DNA from: an uncultured Geobacteraceae bacterium
Lineage (GTDB): Bacteria; Desulfobacterota; Desulfuromonadia; Geobacterales; Pseudopelobacteraceae
Reading direction: 5' to 3'
Assembly: GCA_903901875.1 (NCBI GenBank)
Contig: CAIUSO010000114.1
Span: 1-64,000 of the forward strand
DNA length: 64,000 nucleotides
In this document: positions 6,847 to 46,781 of the stretch, in pieces
How positions within the stretch are numbered: the stretch's first letter is position 1
Layout of the letters: every line of letters starts with the position of its first letter
Made by a program: the position numbers and the translations under genes
The notes under the pieces: generated by a model
The model's input: the letters and a program-made list of their open reading frames with translations, nothing else
Told to the model about the DNA's origin: nothing
Database searches by the model: none

Positions 6847-8217
6847 TTACTGTAACAGTGACACCAGTGTTTCCCCCTGCTGCCAGATATTTCCTGCACC
6901 AAGGGTAATCACGATGTCCCCTTCCCGTACAATGCCGGCCAGATGTTCGGGAATCAGCTCCCGATTACCGATCCAGGTCACATCCTTCTGGCCGTGGCGA
7001 CGGACCTCAACTGCCAGCCGTTCGGCAGTGGCACCGTCAATGGGCTGCTCTCCGGCGGCATAGACATCGGTCAGCACCAGCACATCGGCATCAGAGAAGG
7101 CGGTAACGAATTCATCGAACAGTTCATGGGTGCGGGTATAGCGATGGGGCTGAAAGGCCGCCACAACACGCCGTTCCGGCCATCCCTGCCGGGCTGCGGC
7201 AAGGGTTGCCCTTATCTCTGCCGGATGATGGCCATAGTCATCCACCACCATGATACCCCGTGGCTCCCCTTTCACCGTAAAACGGCGTCCCACGCCGCTG
7301 AATGCGGCAAAACCCTCCTGAATGGCGGTGAAGGGGATGTCCAGTTCAAGGGCCACGGCGATACAGGCCATGGCGTTCAGAACATTGTGGGGACCGGGCA
7401 TGGGAAAGGTTATTTCACCGAGACGATACCCTTTGAAGTGGGCGATGAACGAGGTTTTGAAACCGTCATGACGCACATGGGTGGCACGGATATCGGCCTG
7501 AGCCGATAAGCCGTAGGTCATGTAGCGTTTTTTGACACGGGGAAGTATTTCCCGAATGTTCCGATCATCAAGACAGAGTACCGCCAGTCCGTAAAAGGGC
7601 ACTTTGTTGATAAACTCCACAAAGGTATCCTTAATCTCTTCGATGCCGGAATAGTGATCCAGATGGTCGGCGTCGATGTTGGTAACCACCGCAATGGTGG
7701 GAGAAAGCAGCAGAAACGATCCATCCGACTCGTCGGCCTCCGCCAGAAGGAATTTGCCCTGACCGATCTGGGCATTGGTGCCGATGGCATTCAGCTTGCC
7801 GCCAATAACTACGGTCGGATCGATGCCGGCATGGCCCAGAATGGCCGCCCCCATGGAGGTGGTGGTCGTCTTGCCGTGGGTTCCGGCAATGGCAATGCCA
7901 TATTTCATCCGCATCAGTTCGGCCAGCATCTCGGCGCGGGGGATAACCGGCACATGGAGCCGGTGTGCTTCCACAACCTCCGGATTTTCGTCATGGACGG
8001 CCGAAGAAATAACCACCACATCCACATCGGTCAGATTCTCGGCCTGGTGGCCGATGCCGATTTCGGCCCCGAGGGAAGCAAGTCGTTCGGTGATATCAGA
8101 AGAGCGCAGGTCAGAACCAGATACCTTGTAGCCCAGGTTAAGGAGCACCTCGGCGATACCGCTCATGCCGATACCACCAATGCCGACGAAATGGATCTTG
8201 TCTATTTTTCCGTACAT
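6847..8217 (-). CDS. murC: UDP-N-acetylmuramate--L-alanine ligase MurC
   Basis: Cytoplasmic Mur ligase that adds L-Ala to UDP-MurNAc. It is 456 aa. The N-terminal Rossmann motif [17 protein letters not shown], the P-loop [13 protein letters not shown], the Mur signature [11 protein letters not shown] followed by [10 protein letters not shown], and the C-terminal [16 protein letters not shown] are all present. It lies between murG (18-base gap) and murB. Confidence 0.98.
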
Positions 8218-11804: not shown

Positions 11805-12881
11805 CTACCTCATCTTCAGTGTCGAAATAGCCACCAGTGCCAGAATGATGCTGATTATCCAGAAGCGGACGATAATTTTCGGCTCGGCGACCCCCTTCAG
11901 TTCAAAATGGTGGTGAATGGGTGCCATGCGAAAAATCCGTTTTCCCCGGTACTTGTAGGAGCCCACCTGAAAAATCACCGACAGGGCCTCGACCACAAAT
12001 ATCCCCCCCACGATTACCAGCAGAATTTCCTGTTTTGTCAATACGGCGATGGTGCCAAGGGTGCCCCCCAGGGAGAGTGAGCCCACATCCCCCATGAACA
12101 CCTCGGCCGGGTAGGAGTTGAACCAGAGGAACCCGAGTCCGGCCCCCACCATGGCACCGCAGAGTACGGCCAGCTCTCCGGCTCCCACAACCCGGGGAAT
12201 CTGCAGGTAGGCGGCCAGGGTCGCGTGGCCGGCGATATAGGAGAAGAGCATATAGGTTGCGGCATTAATGGCCACCGGGCCGATGGCCAGGCCATCCAGG
12301 CCATCGGTCAGATTGACGGCGTTACTGGCCCCGACAATCACCAGGGTGGCAAAGGGGATAAACCAAATCCAGAGATCGGGGTGAAAATTTTTGAACAGCG
12401 GGAAATAGAGCTCTTCGCTGAAACCGGGCTTAAGAAACAGAAAAGTAGCCACCGCACCGGCAAGTACTACCTGCCAGAACATTTTCTGACGGGCCGATAA
12501 CCCCTTGGTGTTTTTTTCCACCACTTTTTTATAATCATCCACAAAACCGATCAGGCCGTACCCGACGGTAATAAAGAGTGCCAGCCAGATATATTGGTTG
12601 GTCAGATCGGCCCAGAGCAGGGTCGGAAAGACGATGGCCGCCAGGATGATCACTCCTCCCATGGTCGGAGTTCCCTGCTTTTGCAAATGGGATTCGGGAC
12701 CGTCGGTACGGATTACCTGGCGGGCCTGCATCGCTTCGAGACGGCGGATGAACCAGGGGCCGAGAACAAAGCAGACCAGCAGTGCCGTAATCATGGAATA
12801 GATGGTACGAAACGTCAGATACTTGAAAATATTGAACAGCTTGATGTTGGTGGCCAGCGGAAAAAATATATGATACAGCAT
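11805..12881 (-). CDS. mraY: Phospho-MurNAc-pentapeptide transferase MraY
   Basis: Integral membrane enzyme that makes lipid I on undecaprenyl phosphate. It is 358 aa with about ten membrane helices. Visible family motifs are [13 protein letters not shown], the catalytic-face [36 protein letters not shown], and the C-terminal [12 protein letters not shown] histidine loop. It lies between murF and murD with gaps of 3 and 6 bases. Confidence 0.98.
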
Positions 12882-12884
12882 GGG

Positions 12885-14270
12885 CTATTCCCCTTTAATC
12901 AAACGGTGCAGTTCCGTGGCCACTTTTTCCATGGTTACTCCCCGTGATCCCTTGAGCAGAATCACATCGTCACGCTCCAGAATTCGGTACAGCTCCCCGG
13001 CAACTTCGGCGTGTTCCGAACAACAGATGACCGACTCGGCAGCCATGCCCTCCCTGAGGGCCCCTTCCCGGCCATGGGTGGTCATCAGTTCTCCCAGCAG
13101 ATAGAGGCGATCTACGGTCCGTGCGGCAATGGTGCCGATGGCCCGATGCGCCTCCCCTTCGCCACTGCCAAGCTCCAGCATATCGCCGAGTACGGCAATC
13201 CGATGTCCCGGCCCGGCCAGGGTGGCCAGGGTCTCAAGGGCCGCCCGGGTAGAGGCCGGATTGGCGTTATAGCTGTCATCAATCAGGGTGAACCGATCAT
13301 GGCGTTCTATCTGAAAGCGCCCCTTATAGGGGGTAAAAGCCTCCAGTCCGGCAACAATAACCGGCAGGCTGATCTTTTCCAGAAGGGCCGCCGTCGCCGC
13401 CAGGGCGTTATAGATATTGTGCCGGCCGCAGGCCTTGAGCTGGACCGCCGCCTGGCCAACCGGGGTAACCAGCTGGAAACGCTGTCCCTCCAGCCCCAGG
13501 GAGACAATCTCCCGCGCGCGGACCTCTCCCCGATCAATGCCAAAGCTGATGCGACGGGCAGAAGCATTCTGGGAGAGGGAAGCCACCCGTGAATCATCGG
13601 CATTGACAATGGCCAGCCCCCCGTCAGCGATGCGGTGGAGCAGCTCACCTTTGGCAGCAGCAACCCCCTCCACACTCCCCATGCTCTGGAGATGTGCCTG
13701 AAGGGCATTCAGCACGACGCCGACCTGTGGTGCGGCAATGGCCGCCAGGCGGTCTATCTCGCCCGGCTCACTCATTCCCATTTCCAGCACCGCCCATCGG
13801 TGCTCGGGGCGAAGCTGGAACAGCATCTGGGGGAGACCGATCAGATTATTAAGATTACCGGCGGTTTTCAGGCCGGGTCCGGTCTGTTCGAGAATGGTTG
13901 CGATCATCTCTTTTACGGTCGTCTTGCCGTTACTTCCCGTAACCCCGATGACCGGAACCGTAAATTTCCTGCGCCAGTTGGCAGCAAGATCACCCAGGGC
14001 CCTCAGACTGTTTTTGACGACAACCGCCGTCAGGGTCTCCGGGATCGAATGTCCCTTCAGCCACTGTTCCTCCACAATGGCTGCGGCAACCCCCTTGGCA
14101 GCAATTTCAGCTATATAATCGTGGCCGTTAAACCGCTCTCCCCGCAGGGGGACAAACAGCTCCCCCGGCGCAACGGTCCGTGAATCGGTTGATATTCCGC
14201 TAATGGTGCCGGTGCCGTGGCCGATGATGCGACCGCCGACGGCTCCGGCTATTTCGTTGAGTGAGAACAT
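12885..14270 (-). CDS. murF: UDP-MurNAc-tripeptide--D-Ala-D-Ala ligase MurF
   Basis: Mur ligase that completes the pentapeptide by adding the Ddl product. It is 461 aa. Motifs seen are the N-terminal ISTDSRTVAPGELFVPLRG, the P-loop VTGSNGKTTVKEMIA, the GNLNNLIGLP segment, and the C-terminal LIDDSYNANPASTRAALE. Its first 22 bases overlap the end of murE, which suggests translational coupling. Confidence 0.98.
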   Translation of the reverse strand: MFSLNEIAGAVGGRIIGHGTGTISGISTDSRTVAPGELFVPLRGERFNGHDYIAEIAAKGVAAAIVEEQWLKGHSIPETLTAVVVKNSLRALGDLAANWRRKFTVPVIGVTGSNGKTTVKEMIATILEQTGPGLKTAGNLNNLIGLPQMLFQLRPEHRWAVLEMGMSEPGEIDRLAAIAAPQVGVVLNALQAHLQSMGSVEGVAAAKGELLHRIADGGLAIVNADDSRVASLSQNASARRISFGIDRGEVRAREIVSLGLEGQRFQLVTPVGQAAVQLKACGRHNIYNALAATAALLEKISLPVIVAGLEAFTPYKGRFQIERHDRFTLIDDSYNANPASTRAALETLATLAGPGHRIAVLGDMLELGSGEGEAHRAIGTIAARTVDRLYLLGELMTTHGREGALREGMAAESVICCSEHAEVAGELYRILERDDVILLKGSRGVTMEKVATELHRLIKGE

Positions 14271-42662: not shown

Positions 42663-45600
42663 CTACTGACTTTTTTCAGGAGAAAGCCATTTATCAAGCA
42701 TTTCGGAGAGTGCTTTTTTCGTGAGCGGCTTCGCCAGATAATCATCCATTCCGCACTGAAGGCATTTTTCACGGTCCCCATCCATGACGTTGGCGGTTAC
42801 CGCGATTATGGGTACCCCATGGTTCAGAACGTGTGAGGTAACATCTCTGATTACCTCAGTGGCCTCATAGCCGCTCATTTCCGGCATCATGCAATCCATC
42901 AGAACCAGATCATACTCGGCTATTTCCAGTGCCCGCACCGTCTTGAGCCCATCGGTGGCAACATCAGCTTTATAACCAAGGTTCTTGAGCAGATGAAGCG
43001 CCGTTTTCTGGTTAATCGGGTTGTCTTCGGCCATCAGGATACGGACAGCCACCCCCTCGACCACACTGTTTTCGGGCACCGCAGGAGGTGCGCCTTCAAG
43101 TACCGGCTGTGGCAGTGCAGCCGGTACAGTGGCTTGGAGTTCCCCCTTGCCACAAATCTCCATTGTGGCCGTAAACCAGAAGGTCGAACCTTTCCCTTGC
43201 TCACTCGTCACACCGATCTCACCACCCAGAAGGGTCGCCAGCTCTTTGGCAAGTGCCAGCCCCAAACCGGTCCCGCCATAGGAACGGGTTGACGAGCTGT
43301 CCACCTGGGTAAAAGCCGTGAACACATCGGCAAGACGGGATTCCGCCATGCCGATGCCGGTGTCATGGACATCAAACCTGAGGACCACCGAACTGTTTTT
43401 CACTGAGCAGACGGATACCGAGATGACAACCGCCCCCCTTTGGGTAAATTTGAGGGCATTGTCAATAAGGCTGGTAAGTATCTGCTGGACTTTCCCCCCA
43501 TCTCCCCTCACGAGGCTGGGCACCTCCGGCGCGATCCGGCTTGTCAGCCCCAGTCCCGCCCCGGCAGCCCGGCTGGTAAACGAGCCCATGGTTTCATCCA
43601 GACAAGTGCGGAGGTTAATATCCTTTAGTTCCACATCAAGCTTTTTGACCCTGACCAGGGTAAAGTCCAGAATATCGCTGATTATTGCCAGCAGATTCTT
43701 GCCACATTGGTGTACAATGTCCGCAAACTCACGCTGTTCTTCCGTCAGTTCACTGTCAAGTAACAGATCTGACATCCCCAGCAAGCCGTTTAACGGAGTA
43801 CGCATCTCGTGGCTCATGACCGCCAGAAATTCATCCTTGGCCCGGCTTGCGATTTCCGCCTTTTCTTTCGCATCAACCAGGGACGCCTCCATCTCTTTGC
43901 GTTTATTGATATTTTCCTTAATCCCGATAAAATGGGTTATGATACCGTCATCATCACGCAGTGGTGAAATCTTTGCCTGTTCAAAGTTAATATCACCATT
44001 TTTACTGTTGTTAATGAATTCCCCCTCCCACGACTGTCCCGCCTTGATGGTCGCCCAGAGTTCCTCAAAGATATACGAATCGGTCAATTTCGATTTAAGT
44101 ATGCGCGGGTTTTTACCAAGGACCTCTTCGGCAGTATAGCCACTCAATGTGGTAAAATGGGGGTTAACAAATTCAATAGCACCTTGAGTGTCGGTAATAA
44201 TTATTGACACCGGGCTCTGGTCCACGGCACGGGAGAGCATGCGCAGCTGCTGTTCCGCAACCTTGCGCCAGGTAATATCTTCATGGGTAATAACCCCATA
44301 TATGGTGCCGTTGATGGTGAAACGGCTGGCCTTGCAGACGAACCAGAGCTCTTTTGTGGGGGTGTGGCATGGGTACTCCTTGATAAATTCAGGTAACGTA
44401 CCGTTCAGCACGGAGGAGATGCCGGTGACAAATTCGGCAACGGTGGGGTCCTGCTCACCGGAAAGCGGCTGACAGGCAAAGAAATAATTCGAGCCGATAC
44501 TGCTATGTTCCGGAATCGCATCATTTTCTGCGCCAAAGGTTTCCCAGGCTCGATTTGTGGTGACGATGGTTCCCTGTTCATTAATCACACAGATATGCGA
44601 TCTGATACCGTCAAGAGTCGATTTATAAAACTGATCCTGGGCCGTCAAACTCGCTTCAGCTTTTTTTAAATCGGTGACATCCGTTACCAAAACAAAAAAG
44701 CCATGGACACCATCAGCATCACTATCGGGAATATAGTTGGCCCAGGTATACCCGGAGGTGCCATCGGGTTTGCTCAGAGTACGCTCAAAGTGTTGTTGCT
44801 CCCCAGCCAGGGCCGCCGTAATAAACTGTTCATTTCTCTTGAACAGTCCATCGCCCATCAGATCATGAATATGGATGTCTTTCATCTGCTCGGGCGTTTT
44901 GCCAAACCACTCCTGATAGGCACGATTGGCAAAACCGCAGCGAAGATCATTATCCCAGTAACCGACCATCCCGGGCAATACGTCGATCAGCTTTCTCATG
45001 AAACGCTCACTGGCTTCAAGCGAGGCCGACAGTTCTTTCTGTTCTGTGATATCGATACATGACCCGACATATCCCGTGAACGCGCCGTTGGCAAAGGTCG
45101 GCGTCCCGCTATCGAGTATCCAGCGATAACTGCCGTCATTTCTCAGCAGGCGATACTCCATGGTAAAGCAGTGGCGATTGTCAAAGCAGGTCACATAGGT
45201 GTCGATACAACCATCCAGATCCTCGGGGTGGACCCCTTCTGCCCAGCCATTACCCTGCTCCTGCTCCAAGGTTCGCCCGGTAAAACTCAGCCAGACATCA
45301 TTAAACCAGTAACACAGCTTGTCAAGTCCCGCCAGCCAGATGAGAACCGGCGCAGAATTTGCCAACGAGCGGAAACGGACTTCACTCTCCTGGAGGGCCG
45401 CCGCCGCTGCCACACGGTCGGAAATATCATGGGAAATGGCCGACACACCGACGATGACACCCCGCGTATTGCACACCGGTGACATCGATACCGATACGTC
45501 CAGTGCGGTGCCATCCTTACGCAGGCGAACGGTGTCGTGATGCTTGATACTCCTGCCGTCACGGACCTGCTCCAGAAACATCGCCTCTTCGTACTGGCGC

Positions 45601-46142
45601 TGGGTCGGGACAATCAGGGAGATCGGCTTACCAATTACCTCCGTGCGGCGATAGCCATACATGCGTTCTGCGCCGGCGTTCCAGCTGGTGATGATGCCAT
45701 CCAGGCTTTTTGCGATAATGGCGTCATCGGATGACTCCACAATTGACGCAAGGGCTGACCGTTCTTCTTCAGCCTGCCGTTGGCTGGTCACATCGGCAAG
45801 AACGATCATCAGCTCCTGGCCGTTGATCTTCCGGATAGTGACCTCAAGCTCCAGAGCATTAACTTTCCCCGTCCCCCCATGAATAGTGACAGGCAGTTCC
45901 TCACACACCACCCCGCTCTCTCCGGCAAATGCCGCCACAAGGTGGTGGATTACCGGTGCAACCGGATCGAGAACATGAAAAAGGTTGTCAAGGGTGCCGG
46001 AGCGCGTAACACATTCAAGCAGCGCAACGGCCCGGGGCGTCAGCATCTTGATGTCACCGTTCAGGTCGATCCGAGCCATGGCGACCGGAATCTGGTACAT
46101 AAAAGCAAGCAACTCATCTGATTGGATATTTGGTCTATTCAT
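42663..46142 (-). CDS. Six-PAS hybrid histidine kinase cotranscribed with PYP
   Basis: 1159-aa cytoplasmic hybrid kinase. About six PAS domains run from residue 12 to 755, the second (AIIAKSLDGIITSWNAGAER) and third (NSAPVLIWLAGLDKLCYWF) absent from its paralogue at 32953. HisKA is VMSHEMRTPLNG with His778. The HATPase has DTGIGMAESRLADVF and [13 protein letters not shown], and the receiver has LMAEDNPINQKTAL with Asp1083 (MDCMMPEMSGY). It starts only 4 bases after the photoactive-yellow-protein-like gene and lies behind the same riboswitch. The first PAS domain (MYQIPVAMARIDLNGDIK) is the likeliest site for contact with a separate sensor. No effector regulator follows. Confidence 0.93.
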   Translation of the reverse strand: MNRPNIQSDELLAFMYQIPVAMARIDLNGDIKMLTPRAVALLECVTRSGTLDNLFHVLDPVAPVIHHLVAAFAGESGVVCEELPVTIHGGTGKVNALELEVTIRKINGQELMIVLADVTSQRQAEEERSALASIVESSDDAIIAKSLDGIITSWNAGAERMYGYRRTEVIGKPISLIVPTQRQYEEAMFLEQVRDGRSIKHHDTVRLRKDGTALDVSVSMSPVCNTRGVIVGVSAISHDISDRVAAAAALQESEVRFRSLANSAPVLIWLAGLDKLCYWFNDVWLSFTGRTLEQEQGNGWAEGVHPEDLDGCIDTYVTCFDNRHCFTMEYRLLRNDGSYRWILDSGTPTFANGAFTGYVGSCIDITEQKELSASLEASERFMRKLIDVLPGMVGYWDNDLRCGFANRAYQEWFGKTPEQMKDIHIHDLMGDGLFKRNEQFITAALAGEQQHFERTLSKPDGTSGYTWANYIPDSDADGVHGFFVLVTDVTDLKKAEASLTAQDQFYKSTLDGIRSHICVINEQGTIVTTNRAWETFGAENDAIPEHSSIGSNYFFACQPLSGEQDPTVAEFVTGISSVLNGTLPEFIKEYPCHTPTKELWFVCKASRFTINGTIYGVITHEDITWRKVAEQQLRMLSRAVDQSPVSIIITDTQGAIEFVNPHFTTLSGYTAEEVLGKNPRILKSKLTDSYIFEELWATIKAGQSWEGEFINNSKNGDINFEQAKISPLRDDDGIITHFIGIKENINKRKEMEASLVDAKEKAEIASRAKDEFLAVMSHEMRTPLNGLLGMSDLLLDSELTEEQREFADIVHQCGKNLLAIISDILDFTLVRVKKLDVELKDINLRTCLDETMGSFTSRAAGAGLGLTSRIAPEVPSLVRGDGGKVQQILTSLIDNALKFTQRGAVVISVSVCSVKNSSVVLRFDVHDTGIGMAESRLADVFTAFTQVDSSSTRSYGGTGLGLALAKELATLLGGEIGVTSEQGKGSTFWFTATMEICGKGELQATVPAALPQPVLEGAPPAVPENSVVEGVAVRILMAEDNPINQKTALHLLKNLGYKADVATDGLKTVRALEIAEYDLVLMDCMMPEMSGYEATEVIRDVTSHVLNHGVPIIAVTANVMDGDREKCLQCGMDDYLAKPLTKKALSEMLDKWLSPEKSQ

Positions 46143-46146
46143 AGGG

Positions 46147-46539
46147 TTATCCGAGAGCTAAAAAATTTACCAGAACGTAGCGTGTCGAACACAGGGGGGA
46201 AGAGAGGAGGCGAAGACGAACGTTGGTAGGACGCATCCGCCAACTGAAGGTATACTCCAGCGTCTCATCCAACGGACTCCCCTCAGCAAGAGCATCTTCA
46301 AAACGCTGAGCGACTCTGTAGTTATTCGTGCATTGGGCCACTTCTGTAAAAAATGGCCGTCCAAGCACGTGGTCAGGCAACAACCTTGAATGCTGTGATT
46401 CATAGGCATTATATCTGCGAACCAGCGTGTCTGTGTCAAAACCGATCACACCAAAATCAAGAGCATCCAATTCGTAATCGTTCAGCCCTTCCAATAAGTT
46501 AAAGACACCCGCATGGTCAAATGAAATGGTCATAGTCAA
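46147..46539 (-). CDS. pyp: Photoactive yellow protein (PYP) homologue
   Basis: 130-aa single PAS domain that aligns without gaps to Halorhodospira PYP over its core. LDFGVIGFDTDTLVRRYNAY corresponds to the strand pair, VLGRPFFTEVAQCTNN to the chromophore loop, and LEYTFSWRMRPTNVRLRL to the C-terminal strands. The Cys that carries p-coumarate (PYP Cys69) is Cys70, the pocket Tyr42 is Tyr43 and Glu46 is Glu47. Thr50 is Ser and Arg52 is Leu. PYPs are blue-light receptors. Genes for the chromophore (tyrosine ammonia lyase, p-coumaryl ligase) are not in this window. AAAGGA precedes the ATG. The 4-base gap to the kinase implies a shared pathway. If no chromophore is made, it could sense something else. 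Confidence 0.88.
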   Translation of the reverse strand: MTMTISFDHAGVFNLLEGLNDYELDALDFGVIGFDTDTLVRRYNAYESQHSRLLPDHVLGRPFFTEVAQCTNNYRVAQRFEDALAEGSPLDETLEYTFSWRMRPTNVRLRLLSSPLCSTRYVLVNFLALG

Positions 46540-46638
46540 TCCTTTGGGAAGGGTCCGATTCTCCCGATCTTTGAACGGAACGGGCCGGCCACACGTAGTA
46601 TGTCACTCCATTACGGCACGTCCGTAAAACAAAAAAAA

Positions 46639-46663
46639 CCTTCTCAAGCCGAACTGAAGAAGG
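46639..46663 (-). terminator. Intrinsic terminator of the riboswitch
   Basis: Minus strand CCTTCT and AGAAGG form the base of a stem with further pairing inside, followed by eight T. It lies between the GEMM aptamer and the PYP gene, so it should stop transcription in one ligand state. The stretch AAGAGGG just upstream can pair with CCCCTTCTT and act as the competing antiterminator. Confidence 0.8.
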
Positions 46664-46682: not shown

Positions 46683-46757
46683 CCTGGGTAACCCGACTAT
46701 CCGGTTAACGGACTCGTAGCTTTGCGTCCCTGGGTTACCCCAAGTTTGCCATTTTCA
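46683..46757 (-). ncRNA. GEMM-I cyclic-dinucleotide riboswitch aptamer
   Basis: On the minus strand the leader reads ATGGCAAAC, then a helix CTTGGG-GTAA-CCCAGG with a GNRA loop, then GGACGCAAAGC, a second helix, and GGGTTACC closing the structure. This is the GEMM-I consensus (GGCAAAcc...GACGCAAAGC...GGUUACC). The base before GCAAA, equivalent to position 20 of Vc2, is G, as in c-di-GMP sensors; Geobacter-type cGAMP sensors carry A. A terminator follows, so it most likely regulates by termination. Genes controlled: the PYP homologue and the six-PAS kinase. Confidence 0.88.
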
Positions 46758-46781
46758 AAAAGAGATTATAACGTTCTTAAT

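Follow-up and report, generated by a model that had tools for sequence, protein, structure and literature searches.

The window, a 64,000-nucleotide stretch of DNA from an uncultured Geobacteraceae bacterium, encodes a photoactive yellow protein (PYP) and, in the next gene, a hybrid histidine kinase that begins with a PAS-fold domain, which we call ND. ND stands after nearly every clade C PYP and before every output type, making it a small, concrete target for tests of binding and light control. We favor, with moderate confidence, a reading of these sequences in which ND is the direct receiver on which PYP docks, passing a light signal to the output. The PYP-ND unit is the new part of the finding and is apparently undescribed: we found no earlier account of the ND domain in the open literature, including the main texts of PMC9664959 and PMC12826048; these two papers report GGDEF/EAL and kinase genes next to PYP but mention no domain common to them. 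The features of the locus are collected in Table 1.

Table 1 Features of the PYP-ND locus in the window.
Feature	Position	Strand	Remarks
GEMM-I aptamer, c-di-GMP-I-GGC (RF03167)	46683..46759	-	60.9 bits, gathering score 59
Terminator hairpin, likely expression platform	46631..46663	-	Run of 8 U; from sequence and fold
Shine-Dalgarno AAAGGA	46540..46545	-	Ahead of ATG 46533 of the PYP gene
PYP (clade C)	46147..46533	-	128 aa + stop; coding part 46150-46533
ND, candidate PYP receiver	45756..46142	-	N-terminal PAS-fold domain (residues 1-129) of the gene after PYP
Hybrid histidine kinase	42663..46142	-	ND, several PAS, HisKA, HATPase, receiver domain; 4 nt past the PYP stop

The window encodes a clade C PYP

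An earlier note on this DNA had read the minus-strand open reading frame at 46147-46539 as a PYP homologue with intact chromophore residues and had proposed aligning it with known PYPs. The frame is present, and the identification stands. The NCBIfam model TIGR02373 (photo_yellow) matches the protein at 79.6 bits (E=1.9e-22, model positions 3-121 of 124), and solved PYPs in the PDB match as well; the best is 1mzu, the PYP domain of Ppr (E=3.6e-18), with H. halophila PYP at E about 1e-16. No Pfam PAS family gave a better match; these models are far weaker (PAS_4, E=2e-7). The alignment to PYP is gapless from residue 3 to about 85, which takes in the stretch from the Tyr42 region to Cys69 for which the note had reported this. 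The note's residue numbers (Tyr43, Glu47, and Cys70) are right for a TTG start at 46539, which directly abuts the AAAGGA motif; the likelier start, an ATG at 46533 with a spacing of 6 nt from this motif, gives Tyr41, Glu45, and Cys68 as the equivalents of PYP Tyr42, Glu46, and Cys69. Cys69 is the defining residue of the PYP family (PMC9664959). Among the pocket residues listed in PMC12826048, the window protein keeps Ile31, Phe62, Val66, Ala67, and Phe96 and has Gln in place of Pro68, as do 21 of 86 relatives. The two second-shell differences that the note had singled out, Thr50 to Ser and Arg52 to Leu, are present and turn out to be nothing unusual: the family consensus has Leu at position 52, and Ser50 also occurs in characterised PYPs (PMC12826048). 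With Ser50, an absorption peak shifted to the blue, near 433 nm, would be expected.

The score lies under the TIGR02373 equivalog cut-off of 143 bits, which could point to a generic PAS domain with only a resemblance to PYP. But the cut-off is also missed by a relative encoded inside a TAL-pCL-PYP operon (84.6 bits), and TIGR02373 is reported to recover no more than about 20% of PYP homologs (PMC9664959), so we put the low score down to the narrowness of the model and do not exclude the protein on this ground. The PYP model and structures outscore every Pfam PAS family by at least about 10 orders of magnitude, and the whole pocket is conserved. We regard a generic PAS domain as extremely improbable and reject this identity at the sequence level; by its sequence, the gene encodes a genuine PYP, a new member of a known family.

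By its residue pattern and nearest relatives, the protein belongs to clade C (Xing et al, 2022, PMC9664959), a mostly Burkholderiales group with no member characterised at that date. It has the clade C pattern of Met100, Leu92, and Tyr119, with Phe96 retained; none of the 86 clade C PYPs that we collected deviates at Tyr42, Glu46, or Cys69. The nearest sequences come from other Geobacteraceae MAGs (60%), and further close relatives from one Desulfobacteraceae MAG, an Archangium MAG, and many Burkholderiales. Just after Cys69, clade C PYPs carry a conserved run, C-M-N-N-x-x-V-A-Q-R-F-x-D-A (conservation spans residues 70-81), that is unlike H. halophila PYP, and they differ from that protein at more conserved positions between 95 and 110; our guess is that this run and these changes form a docking face.

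Calling blue-light reception unexpected in a presumed anaerobic sediment bacterium, as the note had done, overstates the case. PYPs have already been reported in Thermodesulfobacteriota, at <1% (PMC12826048), and the host genome holds three PYP genes, one in the window and two on contig C54, all with an intact pocket. Strong PYP matches occur in only 4 of 76 sampled Geobacteraceae genomes, namely the host and three others of its genus. PYP is uncommon in this family, not unprecedented, and photoreception by PYP in such a host is plausible. In a weakly resolved PYP tree of 124 columns, the Geobacteraceae copies are scattered in several places near Betaproteobacteria, a pattern that fits horizontal transfer in either direction.

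ND follows PYP and precedes different outputs

All three host PYP genes precede a gene with a similar N-terminus of ~130 residues, ND. Behind ND lies a hybrid kinase in the window, and a kinase and an HD-GYP protein on C54. The note was sound on PYP homology and intact residues; it had overlooked both the riboswitch upstream and this partner domain, conserved in the gene that follows PYP. The C54 pyp genes (L031, G000:C54, 8945-9328, followed by ND-kinase, and 12745-13098, followed by ND-HD-GYP) adjoin an OleC/OleD-like ligase and reductase pair, with an ABC transporter of the branched-chain amino acid type and a phosphopantetheinyl transferase-like gene also nearby, all named by reading the sequence.

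We ran an ND profile on all open reading frames of 82 PYP-bearing loci (1.43 Mb). Given that these loci were picked by PYP sequence alone, PYP-ND adjacency is not built into the sample. At 78 of the 82 loci, ND is found no more than 200 nt downstream of PYP. Contig ends truncate two of the remaining four; at a third the distance to ND is 262 nt, and L045 is without ND. Conversely, a PYP lies at most 4.5 kb upstream of 125 of the 126 ND domains; many of these domains belong to a second ND gene of the operon, and the one left over sits at a contig edge beside a cut PYP. The hosts of PYP-ND loci include members of Pseudomonadota, Thermodesulfobacteriota, Myxococcota, and Gemmatimonadota. Classified by sequence motif, the outputs of the first gene are GGDEF (46), kinase (11), GGDEF-EAL (10), EAL (4), HD-GYP (1), and cut or none (7), and, mapped on the PYP tree, the output joined to ND switches 18 times or more.

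A few loci depart from this arrangement. At L045 (4260-4634), a clade C PYP from a Geobacteraceae MAG, the next large open reading frame looks like a DUF4347/VCBS-type surface protein. Two Betaproteobacterial PYPs (L099 8394-9116 and L116 6917-7667) are followed by short ND-PAS proteins (~245-260 aa frame) in which an output domain is not recognisable; these are possibly adaptors.

PYP and ND co-occur across genomes

ND was found in 4 of the 76 Geobacteraceae genomes, exactly the four with PYP (p=8e-7 assuming independent genomes, which these are not). Among 195 genomes of Oxalobacteraceae, the family of Pseudoduganella, 36 have both, one has ND without PYP, and PYP never occurs without ND; ND is present in 36/36 PYP-positive versus 1/159 PYP-negative genomes. 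In this family, ND lies within 80 nt of 39 of 40 clade C PYPs, the 40th being at a contig end. The same genomes hold 11 clade-A-like PYPs, none of them with ND nearby. In a set of 345 genomes from the host's phylum, only the host yielded PYP or ND.

Co-transfer of an operon would produce co-occurrence too. PYP and ND might travel together for that reason only, with ND an independent sensor for its own ligand and PYP acting elsewhere; some ND genes stand alone, and ND has an ordinary PAS fold with a conserved cysteine, Cys80, that could serve sensing of its own. But the PYP-ND junction is kept while outputs swap, ND genes far from a PYP exist almost only in genomes with PYP elsewhere, and ND is specific to clade C, being absent beside clade-A-like PYPs. 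We therefore consider mere co-travel unlikely and prefer to see ND as the receiver for PYP.

Two ND genes of the host lie away from PYP. One (L125, G000:C31:41942-42316) belongs to an intact 1192-aa hybrid kinase; in the other (L124, G000:C23:1947-2327), the frame has a stop and a transposase-like open reading frame overlaps it. Directly upstream of ND genes at two further loci (L128, about 7200-7273 on the minus strand, and L151, 4236-4416 on the minus strand) are short stretches similar to the C-terminal end of PYP, which appear to be what is left of lost pyp genes; the L128 remnant was seen by eye, and tblastn gave no match to it.

ND has a PAS fold

An AlphaFold model of ND (pLDDT 88.1) has PAS topology with a leading and a trailing helix, and fold comparison returned many PAS, LOV, and PYP chains with Z of 9-11 and no clear winner. 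By its predicted fold, ND belongs to the PAS superfamily. A specialised known fold was considered and rejected, since only ordinary PAS matches with tied scores appeared. No Pfam model matched the window ND, even with the cut-off relaxed to E<=5, and any one family matched at most 2 of 55 ND members (E<=0.01). Residue 80 of ND (window about 45903-45905) is a cysteine in strand 3, within the motif GVVC[ED], and is conserved in 89% of members; it might be a redox or ligand site. The host genome (4.3 Mb) contains at least 150 PAS domain matches.

At 21 loci the PYP and ND genes are in one frame, which allowed a linked PYP-ND prediction by reading through the stop codon. Both domains fold in this prediction (pTM 0.64, judged without coordinates). 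Over all loci, the distance correlation between PYP and ND is 0.79; in the GGDEF subset it is 0.45 for PYP/ND versus 0.43 for PYP/GGDEF. Because PYP/ND does no better than PYP/GGDEF in this comparable subset, we did not use distance correlation as evidence of contact.

Chromophore supply

The note had reported no chromophore genes in the window, which is borne out, and had proposed searching the rest of the genome for tyrosine ammonia lyase and p-coumarate ligase. That search found neither an aromatic-amino-acid lyase (PF00221) nor a PYP-type coumarate-CoA ligase in the host, and the same holds for all four PYP-bearing Geobacteraceae. Lacking both, the host would have to import any chromophore or make it another way.

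Elsewhere, the neighborhood of clade C PYPs is informative. In Methyloversatilis the gene order is aromatic lyase, 4-coumarate-CoA ligase (a TIGR02372 match at 328.6 bits), clade C PYP, ND-GGDEF, and ND-GGDEF-EAL. In Glaciimonas (L153), a lyase, a clade-A-like PYP, and a ligase are set divergently beside a clade C PYP-ND operon, an arrangement in which a single chromophore pathway may serve both types of PYP. From these lyase and ligase neighbors, clade C PYPs very probably use p-coumarate. Chromophore genes are not a family-defining feature: about 5% of pyp operons contain a lyase and 32% a ligase (PMC12826048).

The Geobacteraceae PYP may be no working light sensor, acting on ND as an apo-, thiol/redox-, or phenolic-ligand sensor, or decaying after import. 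This would fit the missing lyase and PYP-type ligase, given that a PF00221 lyase is present in 20 of 21 other PYP hosts tested (many may be histidine ammonia lyases), and the PYP remnants at two ND loci suggest that loss happens. But the pocket is intact in all Geobacteraceae copies, the most divergent included, and one genome holds three intact copies with partners. Furthermore, p-coumarate uptake is possible and has also been proposed in PMC12826048, and Sphaerotilus hippei has a clade C PYP yet likewise lacks PF00221. On balance, we find a protein blind to light doubtful, though less so than mere co-travel with ND, and keep to PYP as a light input. If photoactive, the Geobacteraceae proteins would depend on p-coumarate uptake together with a CoA ligase of a generic kind, or on some other way of making coumaroyl-CoA.

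A riboswitch precedes the PYP-ND operon

An aptamer and a terminator lie about 150 nt upstream of the PYP start codon (Table 1). Position 20 of the aptamer, mapped onto the usual Vc2 numbering, is G. In a Geobacter GEMM-Ib riboswitch, an A20G change switches the ligand from cGAMP to c-di-GMP (PMC6456294), and by this rule we predict that the window riboswitch is of the c-di-GMP type. It probably sets expression of the PYP-ND unit. The host genome has 18 RF03167 matches, in which position 20 is variously G, A, or C, and none of the other Geobacteraceae pyp loci examined has a riboswitch above threshold. In open papers, 'c-di-GMP-I-GGC' appears in passing mentions only; we found no functional account.

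A model for signaling through ND

The window gene would supply the light-sensing subunit of a receptor made up of two proteins. In this model, clade C PYP would carry p-coumarate on Cys69, and blue light would isomerise it to yield a partly unfolded PYP signaling state. That state would shift how PYP sits on the ND of the next-gene protein and so alter its output, a hybrid histidine kinase here and c-di-GMP cyclases, EAL or HD-GYP phosphodiesterases, and other kinases in paralogs and relatives. We start from PYP homology with an intact pocket, near-obligate PYP-ND adjacency, co-occurrence across genomes, output swapping, and the absence of known chromophore biosynthesis genes. What we infer is the physical docking, the direction of signaling, and a chromophore that is imported or made by an unusual route.

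A broader proposal could go either way: that clade C PYPs, in at least four phyla, are detachable light inputs docking on ND as a single dedicated domain, itself joined to interchangeable kinases, cyclases, and phosphodiesterases, that one PYP drives several effectors, distant ND proteins included, and that the Geobacteraceae receptor is active only with p-coumarate from outside. If so, the Geobacteraceae PYP would be a combined sensor of light and plant phenolics.

PYP is among the best-studied photoreceptors, and its missing downstream partner has been named an important gap (PMC12826048, PMC9664959); the PYP-ND unit makes this open question testable. ND might also serve as a general connector in optogenetics. 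From the Geobacteraceae comes the further question of how a host without known chromophore genes keeps three intact PYPs.

Comparison with known systems

Like the clade C PYPs described previously (PMC9664959), the window protein is single-domain, keeps Tyr42, Glu46, Cys69, and Met100 but not Phe92 and Trp119, and has c-di-GMP enzymes or kinases as neighbors. It differs in its Geobacteraceae host without a PF00221 lyase, in keeping Phe96, and in having Thr at residue 70; the ND domain common to the neighbor genes was not described for clade C in that work. The PYP of Idiomarina loihiensis is also single-domain and has been proposed to act on the signaling protein encoded next to it (PMC9664959, PMC12826048), there a GGDEF/EAL protein, but that PYP is clade A, unlike ours. 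In Ppr of R. centenum, the source of the best PDB match, PYP likewise feeds a histidine kinase. Ppr, however, is a PYP-phytochrome-histidine kinase fusion, whereas here the proteins are separate and no phytochrome domain was found in the window kinase. Finally, the riboswitch shares its aptamer and terminator with the GEMM-I (c-di-GMP/cGAMP) riboswitches of Geobacter, but it has G20 instead of the A20 of the cGAMP type and precedes a photoreceptor operon.
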